Source: Bdellovibrio sp.
GTDB lineage: Bacteria; Bdellovibrionota; Bdellovibrionia; Bdellovibrionales; UBA1609
NCBI GenBank assembly: GCA_003694355.1
Contig: RFKI01000181.1
Coordinates: 1 to 12,735, forward strand
DNA length: 12,735 bases
Direction: 5' to 3'
In this document: positions 858 to 12,696 of the stretch, piece after piece
How the letters are laid out: each line of letters begins with the position of its first letter
How positions within the stretch are numbered: the first letter of the stretch is position 1
Program-made: the position numbers and the translations under genes
The notes under the pieces: model-generated
Database searches by the model: none
Told to the model about the DNA's origin: nothing
The model's input: the letters and a program-made list of their open reading frames with translations, nothing else

Positions 858-3152
858 TCACTTATCGGCTGTTTTTACATACTTTTGAAGAGCCCAAATG
901 GGGTTAGAAGCAGGAACTTCTTCTGGCCATTCTTCTAAGAGCCGGTAAATTAGAAAGTTCCTCAAAACGGCCTTAACGTAAAACTGGGTTTCAGTCCAGG
1001 GAAGTTCTTCTATCCAGATCTCATTTTGGGGCGACGAATCATTTGTTTGGAAAAAAAGTTCCGCCTCTCGACTACTTTGCCATTTCCGAATATTCCCGAT
1101 CCCCACATTATAAGCCGCTAGTGCCAAAGGAACATTTCCATTAAACGCCCGGTACATGCGACTTAAATAAAGAGTGCCAAAAAGAATATTCGTGGATGGC
1201 TGAAACAAATCCTCTGGCAAAGTAATTTTTTTTCTTAAATTCCTGGCCACTTCCCTAGCTGTTAAAGGCATAAGCTGCATTAATCCCAAGGCGCCAGCAC
1301 CACTTTGTCCTTTTGCACGGAAAGAACTTTCTTGACGAATCAACCCTAAAATCAAAAGAGGATCTAGAGCATAACGAGTCCCATAAGTTTTCACTTTATC
1401 CCAATACAGTTTTGGAAAAAGCCTTTTGATCCAAAAAACAGTGATCAAATGGGGGCGCTGATCCCACGCTTCATTGGCCAAGGTAATGGCCTCATGATAG
1501 TTCAAACATCTGGCATACAAATCAGCAAAAACTAACTTTTCTTCAGGGGAGCGAGGTTGATAAAAAGCCTGAAGTTCCAACTGAGCCTCTCTGAACCACC
1601 CTGCATTCACAAAAGTTAAATATCTCTGCCACTCTTGACGTCTCTCCTCCGTTAACCAAACGGTAATGCTTTTCACGGGCTGGCCACCCTCCGGCAAACT
1701 CAACTTCCCGCCTGCAAGTTCAGCTCTGGCTCTTAAACCGTAATAAGTTAAGGGATACTTTTTTGAGAGCTTCTGAGCTATAGTTGAAGCCTCTGCAGCC
1801 TTCAATTGCTGTTTGGCTCGCCATAACCAATACAAAACAGACAGTTCATATTTATCATTACGAGGTAAGCTGAGGTACTTCTCAAGAAAAGCAACAGCCT
1901 CCCCATATTTACCCAACCGATATTTTAACAGTCCCTGTCGGAAAAATGCCTCTCGAGCTTCGGGGCTTCCCGCATGCTCTTTGATTAAAGAACCAAAATA
2001 TTTTTGAGCCTTATCATACTTCCCATCTAAAAGAGCATTCCAGGCCGCAAGCCACGTAGCCTTCGTCAATTTTTTTGTTTTTGCTTTTTTAAACTTTTCA
2101 ACGGATTTCTCAGATAAATATAGTGCTTCTCTATACTTTTCCTGGTCTTTTAAAACCTCAGCCCATTTGAGTAAACGATCTGGCGGAGCCTTAATAATAG
2201 CCTTTAATATTTTTTCCTTTAGCAAAACAAAACGCCTATCCCTATGGCGCAGAACTCTCAAATAAGCTGTTATCACCCGATCCGCAGCCCATTGCGCACG
2301 CACGCCTCCTGGATAGTCATTTATAAGACGTATTCCTGTTTCTACAGCGGGCAATATTTTTCCTCTTTTTAAATAATCTCTGATTCTTTTAACATAAAGA
2401 CGCTCTTCCTCTGTGGCCTCCAAATCCACATTTTGAAGGGGAGAAAAATAATCAGCCCCTTCATAAGACTTCTCAAGTAAACCTAAAGTTTTCCTGAGAG
2501 AGATTAAACGACTTTGAACTTTTAAATCCTTTTTAAATGTAAGGCTTTTTTTATAAAGATTGGCCGCCAAGTCCAAGTTTTGCTGAACAAAAGCAAGATC
2601 TCCAGATAAACGATAAAATTGAAAAGCCTGAGATTTGGTTAACCACTTTTTCATTTCCTCCAGTTTCTCCACAGACTCCCAAGCCTTTAAACGAAAATAG
2701 TTAACCTGATACTGTAAATATTTAAGAAGAGCTGCCACATAAGTTTTTCGCAACAAATTCCAAGCAGAGCTTTGAACCTTCATATTGAAAAGTTGGCGGT
2801 ATCCTCTTTGCAAAGGACTTTTTAATAAAAGTCCTTTTTTAAGATCTCTTTCTACTAAGTCTTTCCCACATTCAAGCTCTCGTATAAGTAACCATGACTT
2901 GAAGGAAGGGAACCTCTTTTGCAAAGCACGAGCCTTTTTTAAACAAGCAGAATAGTTTTTTTGAACTTGGAACTTTTTTAAAATAAAAAACTGACGAGCC
3001 ATAGGTGATGTTGGCTCACTCATATCTTCAAAAAGGCGAGGAGAGTCCTTTGAAACCTGAATGGTGATTTTCTGGAAAGAAGCCTTCAAAGGACCAGAGA
3101 AAAACAACAAAACCACTAAAAAAAACTTAAAAATTCGTATTTTCTTCATCAT
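858..3152 (-). CDS. slt: Soluble lytic murein transglycosylase (Slt family)
   Basis: A 764-residue periplasmic enzyme that cuts glycan strands to 1,6-anhydro products. Residues 1-25 are a signal peptide with a Lys/Arg start and a long hydrophobic core. Residues about 30-570 are helical and TPR-like, matching the superhelical U/L domains of Slt70; the total length is somewhat above E. coli Slt. The catalytic SLT domain is at the C-terminus: Glu608 in IRQESSF, then SGAGALGLMQLMP and AAYNVGIGNIRKW. The gene overlaps the end of batD by 26 bases, so it is translationally tied to the Bat genes. Its binding site GGAGC sits only 1 base before the first ATG (3152) and 4 bases before the second (3149), so the second ATG may be the real start. 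Overlap with batD suggests co-expression with the Bat complex. Confidence in family is very high; its role in that complex is inference. Confidence 0.95.
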   Translation of the reverse strand: MMKKIRIFKFFLVVLLFFSGPLKASFQKITIQVSKDSPRLFEDMSEPTSPMARQFFILKKFQVQKNYSACLKKARALQKRFPSFKSWLLIRELECGKDLVERDLKKGLLLKSPLQRGYRQLFNMKVQSSAWNLLRKTYVAALLKYLQYQVNYFRLKAWESVEKLEEMKKWLTKSQAFQFYRLSGDLAFVQQNLDLAANLYKKSLTFKKDLKVQSRLISLRKTLGLLEKSYEGADYFSPLQNVDLEATEEERLYVKRIRDYLKRGKILPAVETGIRLINDYPGGVRAQWAADRVITAYLRVLRHRDRRFVLLKEKILKAIIKAPPDRLLKWAEVLKDQEKYREALYLSEKSVEKFKKAKTKKLTKATWLAAWNALLDGKYDKAQKYFGSLIKEHAGSPEAREAFFRQGLLKYRLGKYGEAVAFLEKYLSLPRNDKYELSVLYWLWRAKQQLKAAEASTIAQKLSKKYPLTYYGLRARAELAGGKLSLPEGGQPVKSITVWLTEERRQEWQRYLTFVNAGWFREAQLELQAFYQPRSPEEKLVFADLYARCLNYHEAITLANEAWDQRPHLITVFWIKRLFPKLYWDKVKTYGTRYALDPLLILGLIRQESSFRAKGQSGAGALGLMQLMPLTAREVARNLRKKITLPEDLFQPSTNILFGTLYLSRMYRAFNGNVPLALAAYNVGIGNIRKWQSSREAELFFQTNDSSPQNEIWIEELPWTETQFYVKAVLRNFLIYRLLEEWPEEVPASNPIWALQKYVKTADK

Positions 3153-5019
3153 GCTCCATGAGTTTTATAGACTTTGCCAAAAGCTTCTCTATTTGATCCA
3201 TTCTTTTCCTAACTTCTTCCTTATTTTTCAAAGTTTCTAAAATAGAGTCAGGAGCAAAAGCTAACTTTTCAAAATACTCCACTTGTTTCTTCAATTCAGT
3301 CCCCACTTCACGCCTCACACTGGGAGAAACCTTATCTAGTAATTTATGAATATCCTCAGCTCCTCCTTCGTCACTGATATATCCAAAAACCTCATAGGTG
3401 AGATTAATAACCTGAGTCCCTACATCTCTCCATTTGCTAGCATTGAGTTGTTTACGTATCTTTTTCATCCTCTTTTCTAATTTTTCCAAAGCGCCTTTTT
3501 CTTTTCTCTCTCCCAGTTCTCGAAAGGCCTGTATGAGTAAAATCAAAAGCACTATAAGACTTGCCGTCCCCCATAAAATCCATCGCTTCATACCATGCCA
3601 TGGTGATGGTTCTAGCCATTGATATTGCAAATTAAGGATGTTGTTCCCCGAAGAATTTGACTCACTCTCTTTCGTTTGTCCCAAAGCCTCCAAAGGCCGT
3701 TCGTCTTGTGTAACTCTTCCTCTATGAACTGACTCTTTCACTTTTATGGTCAAGGGTTGGCTGGTTAAGGTGTAATATTTTTTCTTTTGAGGATTAAAAA
3801 AGCTGGCATGAAGGGAAGGAACTCGAAACTCTCCCGCTTCTCTTGGAATAAGTAAAACTTCAAAAAGCTTAAAGCTCGTTCCGTCTTTATGAAACTGAGA
3901 CTCTTTTTTAACGTCATAAGGTTCAAAAGACTTTGGCCAATCAATAGGTGGTAAATCAATTAATTTGGCATTACCTCGACCTGCAAATTTAACCTTAATA
4001 ACAAGAGGCTGGTCTACTTGAGGTTCCTTGGTTTCTACTTTAACTCCCATTTGAAACTGACCCACAGCTCCTGAAAAATCATCAGGTCGACCTTCTTTAG
4101 GTAAAGGCAGCACGGTGATCTTCATGGGTTTACTGGCTTTTGTATAATATCGGGGACGCCCAAAACCAATCCCTAGAGAAGACATAACACGACAACGAGC
4201 CTTATAAGAGTCAATAACCAACTTCCCAGACTTCATGGGGAATAAAGCATAAGAAGCTAAAAGAGCTTTTCTATAAAGAATTCCATTAACAACAGCTTGT
4301 TTAAAATTTAACCGAGAAGCAATTTCTATATCTTCTTTCCAAAAACCATTTAAACTAGGGTATTTTAAAGTATCAATCTCCAAAATTTGTCCTCTTGTAT
4401 AAAGGTACCAATTGGCAACCAGTTGCTCTCCTTCATACACTTTATTTTTATCCACTTCCAAACGAATAAAAAAAGATTGTTTCAGTTCAGATTCTCCAAT
4501 ATCCGTTCCAAACCCATGCCTTTTCAACAACTGAGAAAACATATTGTCCATTTCTTCAAAAGGGTCCGAAGGTAAAGGGCTTGGTGGCTGTTGATTTGAG
4601 GGAGGATGCGACGGTGCACCTTGTCCGCTTTTTAAAACTTTTATGGAAAAAGGTTTGGTTCGAAAGACTTTCCCATTTACAGAAACACGGATAGCAGGAA
4701 TATGCAGAGTTCCTGCTTTTTCAGGGACAAGGGTGTAATTAAAAACCTGCATGCGACGCACCTGAAATTGCCCATTAATAAAAGAGCTTTGAACTTCTGA
4801 AACTTCTCCTGTATTTAGCAACTCCAGTCCTTCAATAGGAGGCAACTGGGGAGCCTCCACCGATTGACTCTCAGAGGCTGAAACACGAATACTCAAAGTA
4901 AAACTTTCTCCAAGAACCACCGTTGAACGATCCACCGTGGCTGTAACCTGAACCCCTTCCTGAGAAAGAATTTTTAAAACAAAGAAAAATACCACAAAAA
5001 AACTACCAATTTTTGTCAT
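3127..5019 (-). CDS. batD: BatD family protein (beta-rich periplasmic domains, one C-terminal membrane segment)
   Basis: A 630-residue protein. Residues 1-20 form a signal peptide; about 22-130 form a beta-rich immunoglobulin-like domain (VTATVDRSTVVLGESFTLSI, the typical BatD opening). A Pro/Ser/Gln-rich linker follows at about 131-155, and then further beta-rich domains (a second copy of the theme begins near 183, FIRLEVDKNKVYEGEQL). A membrane helix lies at about 480-499 and is followed by about 130 charged, helical cytoplasmic residues. BatD (oxygen-tolerance family) proteins occur with BatA/B/C; a scaffold or partner-binding role at the periplasmic face is inferred, as no catalytic motif is visible. 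The ATG at 5019 has GAGGAAGAGC directly upstream and overlaps the end of batC by 17 bases; the 3' end overlaps slt by 26. The charged C-terminal tail resembles in layout that of the DUF4381-like protein at 7815-8720. Confidence 0.9.
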   Translation of the reverse strand: MTKIGSFFVVFFFVLKILSQEGVQVTATVDRSTVVLGESFTLSIRVSASESQSVEAPQLPPIEGLELLNTGEVSEVQSSFINGQFQVRRMQVFNYTLVPEKAGTLHIPAIRVSVNGKVFRTKPFSIKVLKSGQGAPSHPPSNQQPPSPLPSDPFEEMDNMFSQLLKRHGFGTDIGESELKQSFFIRLEVDKNKVYEGEQLVANWYLYTRGQILEIDTLKYPSLNGFWKEDIEIASRLNFKQAVVNGILYRKALLASYALFPMKSGKLVIDSYKARCRVMSSLGIGFGRPRYYTKASKPMKITVLPLPKEGRPDDFSGAVGQFQMGVKVETKEPQVDQPLVIKVKFAGRGNAKLIDLPPIDWPKSFEPYDVKKESQFHKDGTSFKLFEVLLIPREAGEFRVPSLHASFFNPQKKKYYTLTSQPLTIKVKESVHRGRVTQDERPLEALGQTKESESNSSGNNILNLQYQWLEPSPWHGMKRWILWGTASLIVLLILLIQAFRELGERKEKGALEKLEKRMKKIRKQLNASKWRDVGTQVINLTYEVFGYISDEGGAEDIHKLLDKVSPSVRREVGTELKKQVEYFEKLAFAPDSILETLKNKEEVRKRMDQIEKLLAKSIKLMEHDEENTNF

Positions 5020-5737
5020 GCTCTTCCTCTTTGCCCTTCTTCTGTCGATTTTCTTTAGCGCGAATTTTTTCCTCCTGACGCTTTAACTCTTCCAAAATCT
5101 TTCTTACCTCATTTTTAGGCAACCGTTGACTTTTAAAGTCCTGTGGTCTTTCTTTCTGTTGCTTGTAATCACTGCCTTGTCCCTTATTTCCCTTATCTTG
5201 CTGGTTGTCATCGGATTGACCGCCTCCTTGACCGCCTCCTTGCTGCTTCAACCACAAAAGCTCTATATTAGTTTTAACTTCTTTGGATTGAGGAAAAATA
5301 TCCAAAGCTTTTTGATAAAAATAAAGCGCTCTTTCAATATTCTTCTTTTGAGCTTCAATGTTGCCCGCATTAAAGTAAGCTGCAAACAATAAGACTTTCT
5401 TTTTAGGATTTAATTTTATCACATATTCATATTCCTGAAGGGCCTTATCTGGTTCCTTTTCCAATTCAAAATAAAACCCCAAGTTCAAGTGAAGTTCTGG
5501 CGACTGAGGGGCCCTCCTTAAGGCATCAATCAAGTTTTGATAAGCTTCAAAGGTGTTCACAACAGGGCCTATTTCACTCTGATTTTTCTTAAACTTTTCC
5601 TCCTGACGTTTTTTAAGGCTTTTCTTAAGAAGAGAGGCGGCCTTGTTATTCTTATGAACAACGATGGGAGAAGCCGCCCAAGCTACCTTCCCTAAAAAGC
5701 AGCTTACAAAATAAAATAAAAGCACTATTTTCTTCAC
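5003..5737 (-). CDS. batC: BatC-like TPR protein
   Basis: A 244-residue exported protein. Residues 1-22 form a signal peptide (AWAA at the likely cleavage site). Two clear TPR units follow at about 79-111 (HLNLGFYFELEKEPDKAL) and 117-150 (YFNAGNIEAQKKNIERAL). The segment 166-195 is low-complexity Gln/Gly/Asp/Lys, including GGGQGGGQ, and the tail (205-240) is a highly charged helix. BatC proteins are TPR adaptors in the Bat complex; protein binding is the expected role. The start is GTG at 5737, not ATG: it overlaps the TGA stop of batB in GTGA and is preceded by the strong site AAGGAGGAG. No ATG with a ribosome site and a signal peptide is available nearby, which supports GTG. No BatE-like second TPR protein follows; batD comes next with a 17-base overlap. 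Confidence 0.85.
   Translation of the reverse strand: MKKIVLLFYFVSCFLGKVAWAASPIVVHKNNKAASLLKKSLKKRQEEKFKKNQSEIGPVVNTFEAYQNLIDALRRAPQSPELHLNLGFYFELEKEPDKALQEYEYVIKLNPKKKVLLFAAYFNAGNIEAQKKNIERALYFYQKALDIFPQSKEVKTNIELLWLKQQGGGQGGGQSDDNQQDKGNKGQGSDYKQQKERPQDFKSQRLPKNEVRKILEELKRQEEKIRAKENRQKKGKEEEHDKNW
5216..5242 (-). repeat. 12-base tandem repeat inside batC encoding GGGQ units
   Basis: Plus-strand unit TTGACCGCCTCC occurs twice without a break (5216-5227, 5228-5239), followed by TTG of a third unit. On the coding strand it gives GGGQ GGGQ in the low-complexity linker of BatC. The copies are identical at DNA level, suggesting recent duplication and possible length variation between strains. Confidence 0.8.
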
Positions 5738-6807
5738 GGAGAAACTCCTCCTTCAAAACGCCCCAGCCACACTCTACTTCCTTCTTTTTTTCGTTCTCCC
5801 ATTTGCCACTCCAAAAACATCAACAATAAAGCCATAAATAGTGGCCACTGATAATATTCTTTATAGTCAACCACCACTGAAGACTCAAACTCTGCCTTTT
5901 GAAGATGATCAATATCTTCTTTAAGTTTTTTAATGGCATTTCCTCCAAAAAATAGATGATAAAACCCTCCTTGCCCCTTTTGAGCTAAAGCTTTTAAAAC
6001 AGTTCCTTTTGTTTTTGTAATCACAATATTACCTTGTTTGTCTTTTTGATAACCCTTTAAAGTGCCATCAGACCGCCTCAAAGGAATAGGAGCCCCCTTT
6101 TCTGTTCCGACCACTAGAGAAAAAATATGAATTCCTTTCTGAATAAGCTGTTCTGCTGCCCGCATAGCTCCAGGTTCATTGTCTTCTCCATCAGAAACAA
6201 TAACAATAGCCCGAGTAACAGAAGTGGTTTTATCCGGCTCAACCCCTCCCCTTTCAAAGGCTTCTTTAGCCATCCACAGAGCATCCTTATAATTGGTTCC
6301 CTGATTGAAAACCGTATCAGAACTTAAGGATTCAATAAACATTTTCAAGGCTGATCGATCCGTCGTAAGAGGAGAAAGCAAAACGGCCGAACCAGCAAAA
6401 GCAATGAGCCCTATTCGATCCCCTCCTCCCATATCTAAAAAGCGTAAAAGCTCTCTTTTGGCTAATTCCAAACGACTAGGTTTGGCATCTTCGGCTCTCA
6501 TACTGTTAGAAACATCCACTAAAAGAAAGATTTCAACACCTTCACTTTTAACTTTTGTCTCTGAACGACCAGCTTGAGGCCGCGCCCACGAGAGAATCAA
6601 AAACAAGCAGGCCATTAAAAATAAAGATAATCGAATATGCCTTTTTCTTAGAGAAACACTTTGGGTTAGAAAACTAACGAGCCGAGATGAAAACACCCTC
6701 TCCAGCACCTTTTTGCGACGATACTGAGCCCACAGAAAAAGTAGAAAACAAACTGGTAAAAGAGTGAGCCATATAAAAACGTCAGAATTCGCCCATCTGT
6801 AATCCAT
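5734..6807 (-). CDS. batB: BatB: membrane-anchored von Willebrand factor A protein
   Basis: A 357-residue inner-membrane protein. Membrane helices lie at about 11-27 and 59-75, the second ending in the Bat signature WARPQAG, and at 322-334 near the C-terminus. The vWA domain between them (about 90-300) has a complete metal-binding (MIDAS) site: Asp98, Ser100 and Ser102 (DVSNSM), Thr171 (GTNYKDA) and Asp206 (DGEDNE). Binding of Mg2+/Mn2+ and a protein partner is expected for the family; the partner is unknown. The ATG abuts the stop of batA with no spacing, and the ribosome site lies inside the end of batA within a perfect hairpin (6808-6825). The gene ends in a GTGA overlap with batC. It is a paralogue of batA with the same helix-helix-vWA-helix plan. 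Confidence 0.93.
   Translation of the reverse strand: MDYRWANSDVFIWLTLLPVCFLLFLWAQYRRKKVLERVFSSRLVSFLTQSVSLRKRHIRLSLFLMACLFLILSWARPQAGRSETKVKSEGVEIFLLVDVSNSMRAEDAKPSRLELAKRELLRFLDMGGGDRIGLIAFAGSAVLLSPLTTDRSALKMFIESLSSDTVFNQGTNYKDALWMAKEAFERGGVEPDKTTSVTRAIVIVSDGEDNEPGAMRAAEQLIQKGIHIFSLVVGTEKGAPIPLRRSDGTLKGYQKDKQGNIVITKTKGTVLKALAQKGQGGFYHLFFGGNAIKKLKEDIDHLQKAEFESSVVVDYKEYYQWPLFMALLLMFLEWQMGERKKEGSRVWLGRFEGGVSP
5738..5753 (-). promoter_or_regulatory. Ribosome binding site of batC with adjacent anti-Shine-Dalgarno
   Basis: On the transcript strand AAGGAGGAG (5753-5745) is followed by TTT and CTCC directly before the GTG start of batC. GGAG and CTCC can pair as a 4-base stem with a 3-base loop, which would partly hide the ribosome site unless ribosomes are arriving from batB. 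The strong site decides the GTG start. The hairpin is short, so its effect is a guess. Confidence 0.5.
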
Positions 6808-6825
6808 TTAAGGATCCCTCCTTAA
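6808..6825 (-). promoter_or_regulatory. Perfect hairpin containing the batB ribosome binding site and batA stop codon
   Basis: The coding-strand sequence TTAAGGAGGGATCCTTAA directly precedes the batB ATG. It is a perfect 7-base inverted repeat (TTAAGGA / TCCTTAA) around a GGGA loop. The AAGGAGGGA ribosome site forms one arm plus the loop, and the last three bases are the TAA of batA. Ribosomes finishing batA would melt it, so it looks built for translational coupling. The inverted repeat is seen directly; the function is inferred. Confidence 0.6.
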
Positions 6826-7818
6826 AACCGTTTGGCCCAAGAAAAAGCCCAGAACATAAAGCCAAAAAGCCCATTTTAAATAAGCTGTAAAAAGCTCTTC
6901 ATACTTGACATATTGATTCACCTCAAATTTTGTTTTTTCCAGTTTGTTAATATCATTAAAAACATTTTCCAAAGCACGGGAAGTCGTTGCTCGATAATAT
7001 TTTCCCCCAGTTTCTTCAGCCATTTTCCTTAACAGTTTCTCATTCACCTTACTGTGTATAGGCCGGTAGGTCTTAATCTTCCGACCCCCAATCCCTTGCA
7101 TGTAAACGGGTAGCCTTGCTTGTCCATCCAGCCCCATTCCTATGCTATAAATGCGCACATTATAATCTTTAGCGATATCTATAGCCGTAGCAGGCGATAT
7201 GGTTCCTGTATTGTTTTCTCCATCGGTCAAAAAGATCACCACACGGCTTTTCGCTTTTGAGTCTTTTAAGCGAGCCACGGCATTAGCTAGAGCGACACCA
7301 ATAGCTGTTCCCATCTTGATATTACGAGTGGTTTGAACTTGTTTCAGGTTTTCTTTGAGTAACTCATAGTCCAGCGTCAGCGGCACCCTTGTATAAGATT
7401 CTCCAGAAAATACCACCAATCCAATACGATCTGTCACGCGCTTGTTAATAAATTCCTCAATGGTTTTTTTTGAAGCCTCTAAACGGTTAACGGGCTGCAT
7501 ATCTTCAATCAGCATGCTGTCAGAAATATCCAAACAAATAATAATATCTATGCCCTGGACATTTTTCTTGATCTTCGTATCAGCCCTTTGAGGCCGCGCC
7601 AAAGCCAAAATAACAAAACTCAAGGCCAATAAACGAAAAAAATCTGGCAAAAAAGCAAGATAAGCTCTAATCCCCCTTGTTTTTAGATTTCTCATGATGT
7701 TCCAGTTACCATACAACAAACTAGGATACTTTCTTTTCTTCCTTATGAGGTTCCAAACAAGAATAACCCCCACAAAGATAAAAAAGAAAAAGGCCCACAG
7801 GGAGTGCCATATGGTCAT
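6808..7818 (-). CDS. batA: BatA: membrane-anchored von Willebrand factor A protein
   Basis: A 336-residue inner-membrane protein with helices at about 7-24 and 58-75 (the latter ending LARPQRAD), and one at 313-330. The vWA domain (about 88-290) has an intact MIDAS metal site: Asp97, Ser99 and Ser101 (CLDISDSM), Thr171 (MGTAIGVAL) and Asp199 (TDGENNTG). The region after the second helix begins INVQG-like (KKNVQGIDIIICLDIS), typical of BatA. In family knowledge BatA/BatB are part of a membrane complex needed for aerotolerance or stress survival in some species; the precise activity is not established. ATG at 7818 overlaps the preceding stop in ATGA and has the strong site AGGAGGGAG upstream. 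Its last codons (LRRDP) double as the batB ribosome site. Confidence 0.93.
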   Translation of the reverse strand: MTIWHSLWAFFFFIFVGVILVWNLIRKKRKYPSLLYGNWNIMRNLKTRGIRAYLAFLPDFFRLLALSFVILALARPQRADTKIKKNVQGIDIIICLDISDSMLIEDMQPVNRLEASKKTIEEFINKRVTDRIGLVVFSGESYTRVPLTLDYELLKENLKQVQTTRNIKMGTAIGVALANAVARLKDSKAKSRVVIFLTDGENNTGTISPATAIDIAKDYNVRIYSIGMGLDGQARLPVYMQGIGGRKIKTYRPIHSKVNEKLLRKMAEETGGKYYRATTSRALENVFNDINKLEKTKFEVNQYVKYEELFTAYLKWAFWLYVLGFFLGQTVLRRDP

Positions 7819-8720
7819 TTCTGAGCTCCCTCCTGTTTCCTGTATTTTTCACATAAGGCCACACATTTTTGAGTCATTCGCAACAACTGCTCACAGTCTT
7901 TCATTTTTAAAAGAGAGAGTTTTCCTCGCGACCTCTTGAACTCCTTAAACAGAGATTTAATCTCCATTTGAGCATGCATAAAAACTTTTTTATGATGCTT
8001 TTTAATATCCTTTAGAACCTGAGACGCTGGCCATTTGTGAGCTGGAACCAAGAAAGCCCTTAACAAATACATTTTAAACAATTCCTCCAGACCATCTAAA
8101 CAACCTTTAAGTTCTTCTTGAGAAACTTGATAACTTTCTGGATGAGAAAAGCACTTTCTTTTTAGCTGTCTGAGGTCTTTATTAAATTGTCCGTATGGAC
8201 CTAATGCCGTATTATGTTTTCTCAGGTCAGCGATGAGATTATTTCGTTCAATCCGTCTTCGAACAACGAGAATCAACCATAAAAGGATAGCCGTACCCAA
8301 AATGACAAAATTTCCCCAAAACCACCATGGATATTTTAATTCAAATGGCCCAAGAGAAAAATAAGGAACGGGTTTTTGAGTTTTTGAAAGAACACTTTCA
8401 ACACTCCAACTCAATGGTTTAACAACAACCTTTTGATTTTGCCCTTTCAAGTAAAAAACCTTGTTTTGATGAACCCCAGGTCGATAGGAGGTGACTTCCA
8501 GTTGAATTTGATTTAACTCAGAATGCATCACCCTTAAAACATAAAGCTTATAAGCATCTTCTTTTTCGTTTTTAAATAAAATTTGCACCTCTCGAAGGGG
8601 CATTTCAAGAGGCTCCCCTGAACAAACAAGGACTTGCTTTGCACCCACCGTCCATTTTTGGGTTTGAGAAGTGAATTCACAAGACCATGCAGACTGACCT
8701 TCTCCTCCTGGCTCTGTCAT
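7815..8720 (-). CDS. Single-pass membrane protein with DUF4381-like C-terminal half
   Basis: A 301-residue protein occupying the place of the DUF4381-type gene in MoxR/Bat clusters. Residues 1-120 look beta-rich with two cysteines (Cys14, Cys33). WW and a membrane helix lie at about 131-153, then RRRIER (154-159), then a helical charged C-terminal half (160-300). The positive stop after the helix predicts C-terminus in the cytoplasm and N-terminus in the periplasm, yet there is no signal peptide: the protein opens MTEPGGEGQSAW, and an in-frame TAA lies seven codons upstream of the ATG. The ATG overlaps the DUF58 stop in ATGA and has GAGGAGAG upstream, so the start is well supported. The C-terminal half resembles DUF4381 by layout (WW, helix, RRR, helices); the N-terminal domain is not recognised. 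The plan parallels BatD. It is probably a BatD-like partner of the DUF58/vWA proteins; this is inference. Confidence 0.75.
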   Translation of the reverse strand: MTEPGGEGQSAWSCEFTSQTQKWTVGAKQVLVCSGEPLEMPLREVQILFKNEKEDAYKLYVLRVMHSELNQIQLEVTSYRPGVHQNKVFYLKGQNQKVVVKPLSWSVESVLSKTQKPVPYFSLGPFELKYPWWFWGNFVILGTAILLWLILVVRRRIERNNLIADLRKHNTALGPYGQFNKDLRQLKRKCFSHPESYQVSQEELKGCLDGLEELFKMYLLRAFLVPAHKWPASQVLKDIKKHHKKVFMHAQMEIKSLFKEFKRSRGKLSLLKMKDCEQLLRMTQKCVALCEKYRKQEGAQK

Positions 8721-9592
8721 CGAAGCGCTCTCCTCTTAAAATAGCTTAAAAGAGGGTCAATGAAATCCTGGTCGGTCCGAACTTGAATGCAATCCACTTG
8801 AGAGCGTTTTAAGTCTTCTGCAATCTGTTGCTTCACTTTTAAAGCTTCTTCTTTGAAAAACCGTCGTACAAGAGGCGATGACAAGTCTATTAATTGGTGT
8901 TCTCCCGTTTCAGGATCTTCCCAATCCACCAAACCTAAAGGGGGAGTCTCTTCTTCTAAAGGATCCTGAACTTGAACTGCTATGATATCATGCTTTTTGG
9001 AAGCCATTCTGAGTGGTTCGGTATAATCTTTATCTACAAAGTCACTGATCAAAAAAACATGGGATCTTTTTTTTAAAATCCCCTGCAAAAACTCTAAAGC
9101 CACAGAAATTTTCGTCTGATGAGAATAAGGCTTAAAAAAATACAAATCCCTCAAGATGCGCAACAAATGACTGCGCCCTTTTTTAGGAGGCACAACATGT
9201 TCGACCTGGTCAGAAAACAACACCAAACCTACAGGGTCTCCATTTTTAACAGCACAAAACCCTAAAGCGGCTGCCACATGAGCCATAACTTCCCCTTTGG
9301 GGTATTTCTGAGACCCAAAATCAGTGGAGCCGCTAATATCAACTGCAAGCATTAAAATATTTTCTCGTTCCTCATCAAATTTTTTTATATAAATTTTTCC
9401 TGTTTTTGCCATTAACGGCCAGGATATAGAGCGCACATCATCTCCAGGAACATATTCCCGAAATTCAGAGAAGGTCATCCCTTGACCCTTGAAAGCTGAA
9501 TGATACTGTCCTGCAAAGAAACTATTAACTCTTTTACGAATAACAAGCTCTAACAGCTTGACCTTTTCTAAAACCTCTGAAGGGACTTTCAA
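8717..9592 (-). CDS. DUF58 family protein (cytoplasmic vWA-like MoxR partner)
   Basis: A 291-residue soluble protein without membrane segments. It has the family hallmark at residues 30-58: GQYHSAFKGQG, then FSEFREYVPGDDVRSISW. A vWA-like core follows with Asp85, Ser87 and Ser89 (DISGST), Thr160 (HQTKIS) and Asp184 (ISDFVD), so the metal site looks intact. DUF58 proteins nearly always sit beside moxR and are thought to link the ATPase to the membrane vWA proteins. The start is TTG at 9592: the GAGGT ribosome site (9601-9605) lies 8 bases upstream, and residues from the TTG (VPSEVLEKVKLLELVIRKRV) match the usual DUF58 opening. The next in-frame Met is residue 39, inside the signature. A one-base gap separates it from moxR; its end overlaps the next gene by 4 bases. 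Confidence 0.92.
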   Translation of the reverse strand: MKVPSEVLEKVKLLELVIRKRVNSFFAGQYHSAFKGQGMTFSEFREYVPGDDVRSISWPLMAKTGKIYIKKFDEERENILMLAVDISGSTDFGSQKYPKGEVMAHVAAALGFCAVKNGDPVGLVLFSDQVEHVVPPKKGRSHLLRILRDLYFFKPYSHQTKISVALEFLQGILKKRSHVFLISDFVDKDYTEPLRMASKKHDIIAVQVQDPLEEETPPLGLVDWEDPETGEHQLIDLSSPLVRRFFKEEALKVKQQIAEDLKRSQVDCIQVRTDQDFIDPLLSYFKRRALR

Positions 9593-9593
9593 C

Positions 9594-10583
9594 TCAAGGT
9601 ACCTCTATGTGATTTAAAATCTCCTTGATCACATCATCTGTGGTCACATTTTCAGCCTCAGCTTCATAGGTTAAAATCAACCGATGTCGTAGAACCTTAC
9701 TAGCTACAGACTTCACATCATCAGCCGTCACGTATCCTCTCCCTCGAATGAAAGCATGAGCTTTAGACGCCTTGGTCAGACTAATGGTCGCTCGAGGAGA
9801 AGCTCCCACATTTAACAAATTAACTAAATGATCCAAACCATATTCCGAAGGAGAACGCGTAGCCATGACTATCTCAACAATATAATTTTTAATTTTAGAG
9901 TCCACATAAATCGCATCAATGCGTCCTTTGGCCTTTTCCAGTTCTTCCTTAGTAATGACAGTATGAATTTCTGGTATTTTCTCCACGGACATCTTTTCCA
10001 GAATTTCCAGTTCTTCTTTCTTGTTAGGGTAGTCCACAAGAATTTTAAACATAAACCGGTCCATTTGAGCTTCAGGAAGAGGATATGTACCCTCTTGCTC
10101 CAAAGGGTTCTGTGTTGCTAAAACCAAAAACGGTTTAGGCAGCGGATAGGTGGTTTCTCCAATGGTCACCTGTTTTTCAGCCATGGCCTCCAAAAGAGCA
10201 CTTTGCACTTTAGCGGGTGCTCTGTTAATTTCATCAGCTAAAACGATATTGGCAAACACGGGCCCCTTTTTAACACTAAACTCTCCTGTTTTGGGGTTAA
10301 AGATCATCGTGCCAACCAAGTCTGTTGGCAGCAGATCAGGTGTGAATTGAATCCTCTGAAATTGTAAAGAAATGGCCTTGGCCATGGAAGACACAGTCAA
10401 TGTCTTGGCCAACCCTGGAACTCCTTCTAACAGAACATGCCCTCCTGTCAGAAGACCCATTAAAATGCTTTCAAGCATTTCTTGCTGACCAACAATCACC
10501 TTATTAATTTCATTAAAGGCTTTTTCTACAAACTGACTTTCATGCTTAATGGCTTCATTAAGTGCGACTAGATCCACATCCAC
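9594..10583 (-). CDS. moxR: MoxR family AAA+ ATPase
   Basis: A 329-residue AAA+ ATPase of the MoxR class, considered a chaperone-like remodeller acting on vWA proteins at the membrane. Walker A is GVPGLAKT (54-61) and Walker B is IVLADEINRAP (113-123, Asp117 and Glu118). Sensor 1 is ATQNPLEQEGTYPLPEAQ (156-173) with the MoxR-typical insertion, and sensor 2 is GASPRAT (260-266, Arg264). All catalytic residues are present and length is normal. The start is GTG at 10583, 8 bases after GGAGG in AAGGAGGG; no in-frame ATG offers a comparable site before the conserved region. It is first in the operon, and a perfect TATAAT lies about 25 bases upstream. DUF58 follows after one base. Confidence 0.95.
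   Translation of the reverse strand: MDVDLVALNEAIKHESQFVEKAFNEINKVIVGQQEMLESILMGLLTGGHVLLEGVPGLAKTLTVSSMAKAISLQFQRIQFTPDLLPTDLVGTMIFNPKTGEFSVKKGPVFANIVLADEINRAPAKVQSALLEAMAEKQVTIGETTYPLPKPFLVLATQNPLEQEGTYPLPEAQMDRFMFKILVDYPNKKEELEILEKMSVEKIPEIHTVITKEELEKAKGRIDAIYVDSKIKNYIVEIVMATRSPSEYGLDHLVNLLNVGASPRATISLTKASKAHAFIRGRGYVTADDVKSVASKVLRHRLILTYEAEAENVTTDDVIKEILNHIEVP
9601..9606 (-). promoter_or_regulatory. Ribosome binding site supporting the TTG start of the DUF58 gene
   Basis: AGAGGT on the coding strand lies 8 bases before TTG (9592), inside the last codons of moxR. It is the only site at correct spacing for a start that keeps the conserved DUF58 N-terminus. Confidence 0.6.
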
Positions 10584-10709: not shown

Positions 10710-11549
10710 ATGCAAAAAATGCGTCCATGGTTTTTTTTGATCCTTCAATCGGCTCTTATTCTCTATGTGGGTCATTTACTTGGAGGTTCTTCAGGGTTAA
10801 TGATTGGGCTCGTTCTGGCCCTCCTTCTTAACACGTTTTACTATCTTTTCTCTCCACTGAAGTTAAAACCTTTTTCTGAGGCTACAAAACTTGAAGGACA
10901 AGACCCTTGGGGGCTGTTAGAAATGGCTCAGAACCTTTCCCAAAAAGCTCACCTTCCCTCAACGCCCCCCATTTATCTCCTCTCTTCAGAATCGCCCCAA
11001 GCTATGGTTCTAGGAACACACTTTCGAAACGCTTCCATTGTTCTAACTACAGCCCTTCTACAACACTTTAGCAAAAAAGAACTAGAAGCCATTCTGGCCT
11101 ACCAGATTGTAAGCATTAAAACCCAAGCTCATCTGGCCTTTAATTTCGCCACTCTTTTTGCTCTTCTTATTCTCTCCGCTTCCAACTTTCTAGATAGAGT
11201 GTATTGTGATGTTATTGGCATTAAGCAAAAAAACTCTTTTTGGGCTCATCCCTTTTCAACTCTACTCGTTCCCTTGATTCATTTTCTTCTTCATCTCCCT
11301 CTGGGCAAAAAAATTTATTATAAACTGGATCAAAAGAGCGCTCAGCTTATAGGGTCTCCTCGCCCCTTGGCCCAAGTTTATTGGAAACTGGAGACTCTCC
11401 GAAAAACCAAGCCCTATAAAATTTTCCCAGCTTTTGCTCCTTTATTCATAGCCAACCCCTTGACGGATCAGGGGTGGACTCGTTATTTTCAACTTCAGCC
11501 TCATGCCAAAAGCCGTATTCAACGGCTTATTGGCAGTTACCCTATATAA
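10710..11549 (+). CDS. HtpX-like M48 family membrane protein lacking the zinc and catalytic residues (predicted pseudoprotease)
   Basis: A 279-residue protein matching HtpX along its length. Two N-terminal membrane helices span about 7-47. The M48 core follows (LLEMAQNLSQKAHLPSTPPI, 69-88; then VLTTALLQHFSKKELEAILA, 111-130), then helices at about 143-162 and 181-198, and the closing block PHAKSRIQRL (264-273), matching THPPLDKRIEAL of HtpX. Where HtpX has AHEISH this protein has AYQIVS: His to Tyr131, Glu to Gln132, His to Ser135. The third zinc ligand (Glu in EFHAD) is Tyr203 in YYKLD; only Asp207 remains. It therefore cannot bind zinc or cut peptides in the usual way. The reading frame is intact, so it is not a decayed gene by frameshift. 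The ATG at 10710 has only a poor ribosome site; Met4 (10719) is an alternative. It is transcribed away from moxR and followed 14 bases later by a DUF1844 gene. Confidence 0.8.
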   Translation: MQKMRPWFFLILQSALILYVGHLLGGSSGLMIGLVLALLLNTFYYLFSPLKLKPFSEATKLEGQDPWGLLEMAQNLSQKAHLPSTPPIYLLSSESPQAMVLGTHFRNASIVLTTALLQHFSKKELEAILAYQIVSIKTQAHLAFNFATLFALLILSASNFLDRVYCDVIGIKQKNSFWAHPFSTLLVPLIHFLLHLPLGKKIYYKLDQKSAQLIGSPRPLAQVYWKLETLRKTKPYKIFPAFAPLFIANPLTDQGWTRYFQLQPHAKSRIQRLIGSYPI

Positions 11550-11563
11550 ACAAGGACTTATAA

Positions 11564-11854
11564 ATGAAATCTCAACAAAAACTGGAAGCCAATTTTTCTT
11601 CCCTCATTCTCTCCATAGCCTCTTCTGCGGCCATGTCCCTTGGACTGGCTCCAGACCCTCATACCAATAAAATTCAAAAAAACCTTCAAATGGCCACCTT
11701 CAATATTGACTTGCTGCTTCTTTTACGGGAAAAAACCAAAAACAATCTGACCTCAGAAGAAGAGTCTTTTCTAAATTCCGTGATCAGTGACCTTCAGGTT
11801 AGATTTTTAGAAGCCCAAAAGGCTGAAGAAAAAGAACCCGAAAAAACAAAGTAA
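11564..11854 (+). CDS. DUF1844 domain protein
   Basis: A 96-residue cytoplasmic-looking protein without signal peptide or membrane helix. Residues 11-85 follow the DUF1844 pattern: FSSLILSIASSAAMSLGLAP (11-30), DPHTNK, then a helix with NIDLLLLLREKTKNNLTSEE (48-67) and a closing helix SVISDLQVRFLEAQ. The tail is Lys/Glu-rich. DUF1844 proteins are small and common in delta-proteobacteria and planctomycetes; no function is established. The ATG has AAGGA 8 bases upstream. Gaps of 14 bases on both sides place it in an operon with the HtpX-like gene and the following secreted protein. Confidence 0.85.
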   Translation: MKSQQKLEANFSSLILSIASSAAMSLGLAPDPHTNKIQKNLQMATFNIDLLLLLREKTKNNLTSEEESFLNSVISDLQVRFLEAQKAEEKEPEKTK

Positions 11855-11868
11855 AAGCAAGAGGACTT

Positions 11869-12696
11869 GTGAAGCTTTTAACATTCTCCAAACTGATCTT
11901 GATTATCAGTTTATCTTCTTTTTCTTTATTTGCCGACCCTCAGGACTGCAAAGAGCAACTTCACCCCTCTCCCATTTCAGCGTCTTTTTTAAAAGACATG
12001 CATGAGATCTACTATATGAGCTCCCCTTATCTTTACAAAGCCAGTGAGCCTCTTTTAAGAATTATCAGCCCTATCCAAGTCCTTCGTTCTGCACAAACTT
12101 TTCTCAAAAGGTACAACATCTCCTCTCACATTGTTTTTGACTCAAGTAAACAATATCACCTGCTGGAGATTTCACCTCTCAACAGCCCCATAAGCTCTCA
12201 TCCCTTTCTCTCTCAACTTCATCAAGCTGCTATGAAGGGCTATAAAGTGTTTTTTGACCCCATTGAATACCTGTCCCCTTCTCGCCCCGACAAAAATGTT
12301 TTAAGTTTTGACCCCTTTTGGATCCCTTTCAACAAATCCCCCTTCGTTTTCCGCCTGTGTCACAACTCCAAAAAAGGGCGAGCTGTTTTTCTGAGTGAAC
12401 AGTTTTTCTATGATCTTTTTTACAAAACCACCTCGCCTATGCCTCCACCACCTCTTCTTTTTCTGGGGCCCCAAGCTCTCGTAGAAGGGCTGAGACAAGG
12501 CGCTGACAGCCTTTTCCAAACGTCCCCTCTAGAAACTTCTCTCCAGGCAACGGACCTTGTAGATGGCTTCTCCAACCAAATGCTCACCAAGGTTCTAGCC
12601 CTTAAAAATGCCAGCCGCCTTTTGGAAGAAACACTCCGTCTTCCCGAAAAAAGTCCTTTCCGAAAAAGACTCCCTGTTATTTATGGAAACATTTAA
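11869..12696 (+). CDS. Unrecognised secreted protein
   Basis: A 275-residue protein I cannot assign. Residues 1-22 form a signal peptide (MKLLTFSKLILIISLSSFSL, then FA before DPQ), so it should be periplasmic or outer-membrane associated. The mature part has two cysteines (Cys27, Cys164) that could form a disulfide. It is rich in aromatic residues and Ser/Pro, and contains a Pro run MPPPPL (191-196) and a helical C-terminal third. No lipobox, repeat or catalytic motif is evident. The start is GTG at 11869 with GAGGA 5 bases upstream; it gives a proper signal peptide, which supports it. It lies 14 bases after DUF1844 and so probably belongs to the same transcript as the HtpX-like protein. Confidence 0.7.
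   Translation: MKLLTFSKLILIISLSSFSLFADPQDCKEQLHPSPISASFLKDMHEIYYMSSPYLYKASEPLLRIISPIQVLRSAQTFLKRYNISSHIVFDSSKQYHLLEISPLNSPISSHPFLSQLHQAAMKGYKVFFDPIEYLSPSRPDKNVLSFDPFWIPFNKSPFVFRLCHNSKKGRAVFLSEQFFYDLFYKTTSPMPPPPLLFLGPQALVEGLRQGADSLFQTSPLETSLQATDLVDGFSNQMLTKVLALKNASRLLEETLRLPEKSPFRKRLPVIYGNI

Follow-up and report, generated by a model that had tools for sequence, protein, structure and literature searches.

An HtpX orthologue without its zinc and catalytic residues in the Bdellovibrionales, probably retained as a non-catalytic membrane protein

The locus

The window, i.e., the whole stretch of 12,735 nucleotides of Bdellovibrio sp. contig RFKI01000181.1 that was analysed, carries on its forward strand (10710..11549) a gene for an HtpX-like protein of 279 amino acids with a dead active site, hereafter HtpX-A, as defined by ORF translation, Pfam, NCBIfam and AlphaFold2. 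Next in the operon and 14 bases downstream lies a DUF1844 gene (11564..11854, forward strand; Pfam), and the divergent neighbour upstream is a gene for a moxR AAA ATPase (9594..10583, reverse strand; Pfam), beyond which stand the DUF58, bat/VWA, BatD, TPR and SLT genes (858..9592, reverse strand), all conserved, the SLT gene less so. The DUF1844 gene is followed on the forward strand by a frame of 275 aa that begins with a signal-like segment (11869-12696), in the place where 73 of 81 loci of the order have a gene for an HtrA-like protease; this frame gave no family match above cut-off and has no phmmer relative among the fetched loci, and no clear HtrA of this operon type was found in the window's own assembly (83% complete).

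The fold of the protein is readily assigned. The Pfam Peptidase_M48 match reaches 37.1 bits for a cut-off of 20.3, and the NCBIfam HtpX model PRK03001 aligns over nearly the full length at 126.5 bits, below its equivalog cut-off of 369; with the Escherichia coli-type HtpX model (PRK05457/NF003965), the score is only 32-33 bits. The AlphaFold2 model adopts an M48/HtpX fold (pLDDT 92.1) and matches Ste24p/ZMPSTE24, BepA and HtpX in structure comparison, as expected from an earlier note, made from the sequence alone, which had recognised M48 on both sides of the active site. Four hydrophobic stretches are predicted from hydropathy and form the two pairs typical of HtpX, namely residues 8-26 and 29-47 (10731..10850) and residues about 140-160 and 181-199 (11127..11306), both on the forward strand. 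The reading of the site itself in that note was also confirmed by translation and profile alignment, i.e., YQIVS stands in place of HExxH at residues 131-135 (11100..11114, forward strand), and the Glu that serves as third zinc ligand is replaced by Tyr203 (11316..11318, forward strand). Four residues further, Asp207 (11328..11330, forward strand; alignment) is a site residue still present. Two other segments of the forward strand bear on the family as a whole, namely LEGQDPWG (10890..10913; profile columns 59, 61, 63 and 64), which is derived and conserved in HtpX-A of the Bdellovibrionales, and GSYPI at the C-terminus (11532..11546; profile alignment). Judged from these residues, HtpX-A of the window would be devoid of proteolytic activity.

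Gene neighbourhood and orthology

A profile built from 28 relatives was run on 140 Bdellovibrionales genomes and 144 genomes of the phylum, and 81 Bdellovibrionales loci, i.e., the window and those of 80 fetched genomes, were all aligned to one profile. DUF1844 adjoins HtpX-A downstream in 74 of these 81 loci (in G003 it lies 3.2 kb away), moxR lies upstream in divergent orientation in 78, and 73 encode an HtrA-like protease downstream, for which Pfam detected trypsin and PDZ domains in the three loci examined. Among the eight loci devoid of HtrA, the sequence ends within about 2 kb downstream in the window, L132, L168 and L177, and there is room for the gene in L136, L181, L182 and L188.

The comparison was extended to the phylum with 11 fetched loci from six other families. 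HtpX is intact in ten of them and has the third-ligand Glu changed to Asp in one (G226); DUF1844 adjoins it in 10 loci and HtrA is encoded further on in 9; in the exceptions, 847 and 108 bases of downstream sequence are available. The gene for moxR is found upstream in none (0/11). Since the phylum copies are mostly intact and DUF1844 stands beside 10 of the 11, the window gene descends from the true HtpX of the phylum and, on gene order and tree, is a vertical orthologue of it, its own locus having DUF1844 but no HtrA. The alternative that HtpX-A is a side paralogue was rejected on the same grounds.

Spread of the inactive site in the Bdellovibrionales

The complete catalytic and zinc set is missing from 80 of the 81 Bdellovibrionales genomes, the number of residues kept being four in 1 copy, two in 20, one in 21 and none in 39. 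These positions are not weakly conserved ones, since the same four columns read H, E, H, E in 71/71 external canonical HtpX rows and in 10/10 phylum rows. The lone copy with all four residues (HEMAH and Glu) is that of G038, and Glu occupies the third-ligand column in 3/81 copies only, i.e., G038 and two copies without HExxH (G093 and G097). The earlier note had held that a close relative with intact HExxH would speak against its reading; one member of the order, G038, answers to that description, the set being incomplete in the other 80. It had also raised the question of whether orthologues beside DUF1844 and moxR share the YQxxS state: the dead site is indeed common to them, but a single fixed YQxxS state is not, and no single replacement ligand set runs throughout the alignment. 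The group is placed in the Bdellovibrionales by source names, and Bdellovibrio bacteriovorus is among its members.

For one copy of the genus Bdellovibrio, 167 relatives were retrieved, and the figures that follow concern the best 120 of these 167. The catalytic Glu is absent in 120/120 and replaced by Gln in 119, and the third-ligand position is occupied by F, Y, V, I or L. In 82/120, ExxH is replaced by Q[ILVM]CH with its conserved Cys, and a leading His precedes this motif in the 8 fetched loci of genus g37; Bdellovibrio L142 and relatives carrying it may have a residual metal site. The position of Asp207 is Asp in 120/120 of the same set as well as in 67/67 rows of the tree described below.

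Away from the site, a [YFH]P[ILVM]-like C-terminal tail is found in 56/81 Bdellovibrionales copies and in none of the 71 canonical or 10 phylum rows, and 12 columns are newly conserved in HtpX-A of the order at a level of at least 70%, ten of which are already so in the intact G038 copy. Active HtpX has 48 invariant columns, of which 17 are held at 60% or more in the Bdellovibrionales and 31 fall below, including most of the NAFATGR strand and of the SRxRE segment. What is retained comprises the fold, the two hydrophobic pairs, Asp207 and Arg269, along with the derived EGxDPWG and YPI-like C-terminus; on the alignment, the catalytic cleft is no longer held.

HtpX-like frames with a degenerate HExxH were also encountered outside the order, i.e., L205, L206, L233-L238 (family f12), L239 (f23) and L240 (f27), of which only L240 adjoins DUF1844. 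They may represent independent or earlier losses.

Order of the losses

In a careful tree of 67 rows, 45 of them from the Bdellovibrionales, the clade of the order has a support of 100/100 and a stem of 1.09 changes per column, and the intact G038 copy is its first branch (91/76, SH-aLRT 76); in a larger quick tree, G038 sits in an unresolved basal fork. Over the whole 67-row tree, the first His requires at least 8 changes, the second His 5, the Glu 4 and the third ligand 2, and none is needed for the Asp; one of the two third-ligand changes is that of G226, outside the order. This suggests that the catalytic positions were lost stepwise, third ligand first, and not together as had been thought initially. 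A single loss of the third ligand is not certain, since the tree omits the long-branched L176 and L178 (G093 and G097), which have Glu there and a broken HExxH. Since G038 shares ten of the 12 newly conserved columns, the remodelling of HtpX-A seems to have preceded the loss of catalysis.

The G226 copy (L203) has an intact HExxH, Asp as third ligand and a long branch beside its intact relative L193, and its genome carries two HtpX copies of the second type described below; it is possibly a case of loss in progress.

Selection, divergence and deletion

The dN/dS ratio was estimated by NG86 on 19 within-genus pairs, with dS computable in 16. It ranges from 0.00 to 0.27 in these 16 of the 19 pairs, 10 of the 16 usable dS values being above 1.5 and many near saturation. 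Close pairs show HtpX-A to be under purifying selection. In every pair where changes occurred, its dN is higher than the values for moxR and DUF58; it is lower than for batX in all pairs in which both genes were found, and mixed relative to the VWA genes. Internal stops are absent from the listed Bdellovibrionales matches. HtpX-A thus combines the two features of a pseudoprotease, i.e., sites lost across orthologues (80/81) and purifying selection, the latter from ratios of which many are near saturation.

In the profile search, 30 Bdellovibrionales genomes were weak or lacking, 20 of which have DUF1844. Among these 20, 12 retain a recognisable, more diverged HtpX-like protein, 11 of which align across the motif and none of which has HExxH; three have an open frame in the slot for which no tie to HtpX was found. 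HtpX-A is cleanly deleted in five genomes of three lineages (G045; G106; G013/G028/G136), where moxR adjoins DUF1844 with about 100-160 bases between the frames. It is dispensable there, since it is cleanly absent while DUF1844 and HtrA remain; like the intact G038 copy, these deletions bear on what the earlier note gave as grounds against its reading.

A second HtpX of the Escherichia coli type

The earlier note had proposed looking for a second, intact htpX in the same genome, and there is one: G000, the window's genome, encodes at C252 an intact M48 protein with HEIAH and Glu, hereafter named HtpX-B, whose 352.6 bits exceed the cut-off of 245 for the E. coli-type HtpX (NCBIfam). A 613-residue M48 frame is also present at C122. 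In a survey of 77 chosen genomes, HtpX-B was above cut-off in 63, including 46 of the 50 Bdellovibrionales genomes with a dead HtpX-A, all five of those that have lost HtpX-A, 9 of the 10 from families f12, f23 and f27 with a dead A (the tenth, G193, has two adjacent sub-cut-off pieces), both f26 genomes (one with an intact A) and G038. It was not found in 9 of 9 intact-A genomes of families f11, f13, f14, f19 and f21, which are 61-100% complete, several being incomplete. G211 and G038 possess an intact HtpX-A together with HtpX-B. The pairing of a dead A with HtpX-B is not strict, since no HtpX-B above cut-off was found in four dead-A genomes (G026, G032, G048 and G051; 86-97% complete), and since the lineages are few the distribution is to be read as a pattern rather than as a tally of independent events. 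This pattern is consistent with a loss of catalysis after a second HtpX had become available. Two adjacent intact E. coli-type HtpX genes were seen at L212 (G042).

Interpretation

The reading we favour, with a probability of about 0.6, is that HtpX-A was displaced as an enzyme by HtpX-B and retained in the membrane as a scaffold or adaptor without catalytic function. HtpX-A would be the vertical descendant of the phylum HtpX, of the type encoded before DUF1844 and an HtrA-like serine protease. HtpX-B was probably already present early in the Bdellovibrionales and able to do the proteolysis. HtpX-A would have been remodelled first, its zinc site being still present, as the long stem branch and the new conserved residues suggest; the third zinc ligand would have been lost next, and HExxH then eroded repeatedly to different letters. 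The protein would now serve envelope protein quality control from within the membrane, as a scaffold or adaptor acting through surfaces outside the old cleft. We infer displacement by HtpX-B as the cause, this order of events and this role, which is the most likely role in view of what has been kept, i.e., fold, hydrophobic pairs, Asp207, Arg269, EGxDPWG and the YPI-like end. Candidate partners would be FtsH, HtpX-B, DUF1844 and HtrA; a strict two-way dependence is disfavoured by the four genomes in which A persists but B is not found, and by the five that have lost A and retain B, DUF1844 and HtrA. A tentative variant places re-purposing before inactivation: a new interaction surface would have arisen in a still zinc-competent protein, the state seen in G038, and the protein would then have been dedicated, as a membrane scaffold, to a module of HtpX, DUF1844 and HtrA for envelope quality control, catalysis being lost as HtpX-B supplied it.

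A rival to retention is slow decay, where HtpX-A would be redundant and on its way out, kept for now by chance and operon position. The five clean deletions, the fast divergence with lineage-specific motif letters and the drop of 31 of the 48 invariant columns point that way, and slots that in some genomes hold proteins barely or not recognisable as HtpX also weigh against retention, but low dN/dS in 16 of 19 pairs, listed matches free of internal stops, the 12 derived residues and the same genomic place in most of the 81 genomes make decay unlikely. With the confident M48 model, the same selection, stop and neighbourhood data bear out the initial view of a retained, probably non-proteolytic protein, with the reservation that five genomes have dispensed with it. 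Another chemistry is highly improbable: the retained Asp, the frequent Q[ILVM]CH of Bdellovibrio-type proteins and the leading His of the g37 loci could suggest that some members (HQxCH, Bdellovibrio) bind metal and are enzymatic, but in the window the four positions are occupied by Tyr, Gln, Ser and Tyr, and the order has no common replacement set.

Two further possibilities fall within the scaffold reading as particular cases, so that their odds overlap with it. That HtpX-A anchors or feeds the co-encoded HtrA at the membrane is in keeping with the htpX-DUF1844-htrA order and with the downstream HtrA of most loci in the order and the phylum; it is somewhat unlikely given that HtpX has its M48 domain on the cytoplasmic side and HtrA is periplasmic, that DUF1844 and HtrA persist where HtpX-A is gone, and that no HtrA follows DUF1844 in the window. 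The earlier note had imagined a role in regulating an active HtpX or FtsH. Pairing of the dead copy with HtpX-B, or competition for substrates in the membrane, would accord with the presence of both copies in 46 of 50 genomes and with a review in which inactive homologues sometimes regulate active kin (PMC11266112). This idea is weakened, and now improbable, since the dead protein persists in four genomes without HtpX-B above cut-off; besides, B occurs without A in 5/5 deleted genomes, and the two genes are on separate contigs in G000 and distant from each other in G047.

These results correct the annotation: where sources give these proteins a name, it is M48 or M56 metalloprotease, heat-shock protein or HtpX, a misnaming that extends to B. 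bacteriovorus, a predator amenable to laboratory culture and mutagenesis. If re-purposing did come first, it would have done so in an order including the predator Bdellovibrio.

Comparison with known systems

The closest known relative is HtpX of the PRK03001/NF002826 type, of family M48B. The window protein shares with it the fold, the length, the hydrophobic pairs, the C-terminal block and the Asp and Arg of the domain, and in relatives from the phylum the operon with DUF1844 and HtrA is as in the Bdellovibrionales; unlike it, the window protein has neither HExxH nor the third Glu, its NAFATGR strand is eroded, and EGxDPWG and the YPI-like end are derived. The E. coli-type HtpX (PRK05457/NF003965) of the same genome is likewise an M48 membrane protein, but one with an intact HEIAH and Glu that stands above the cut-off of a model which the window gene matches only faintly. 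A literature search on HtpX/M48 with Bdellovibrio, pseudoprotease, inactive HEXXH and paralog listed no paper on an inactive HtpX/M48 lineage, DUF1844 came up in a single paper of the literature searched, and M48, HtpX and Ste24 gave no match in the main text of the pseudopeptidase review (PMC11266112). With metallopeptidase pseudoenzymes in general, the subject of that review, HtpX-A has in common that it is an inactive homologue retained under selection. To these, the Bdellovibrionales add an order-wide case of inactive HtpX in which the outgroups and one member are still intact and several intermediate states are seen, and from which the order of events, i.e., remodelling, ligand loss, motif erosion and deletion, becomes testable.
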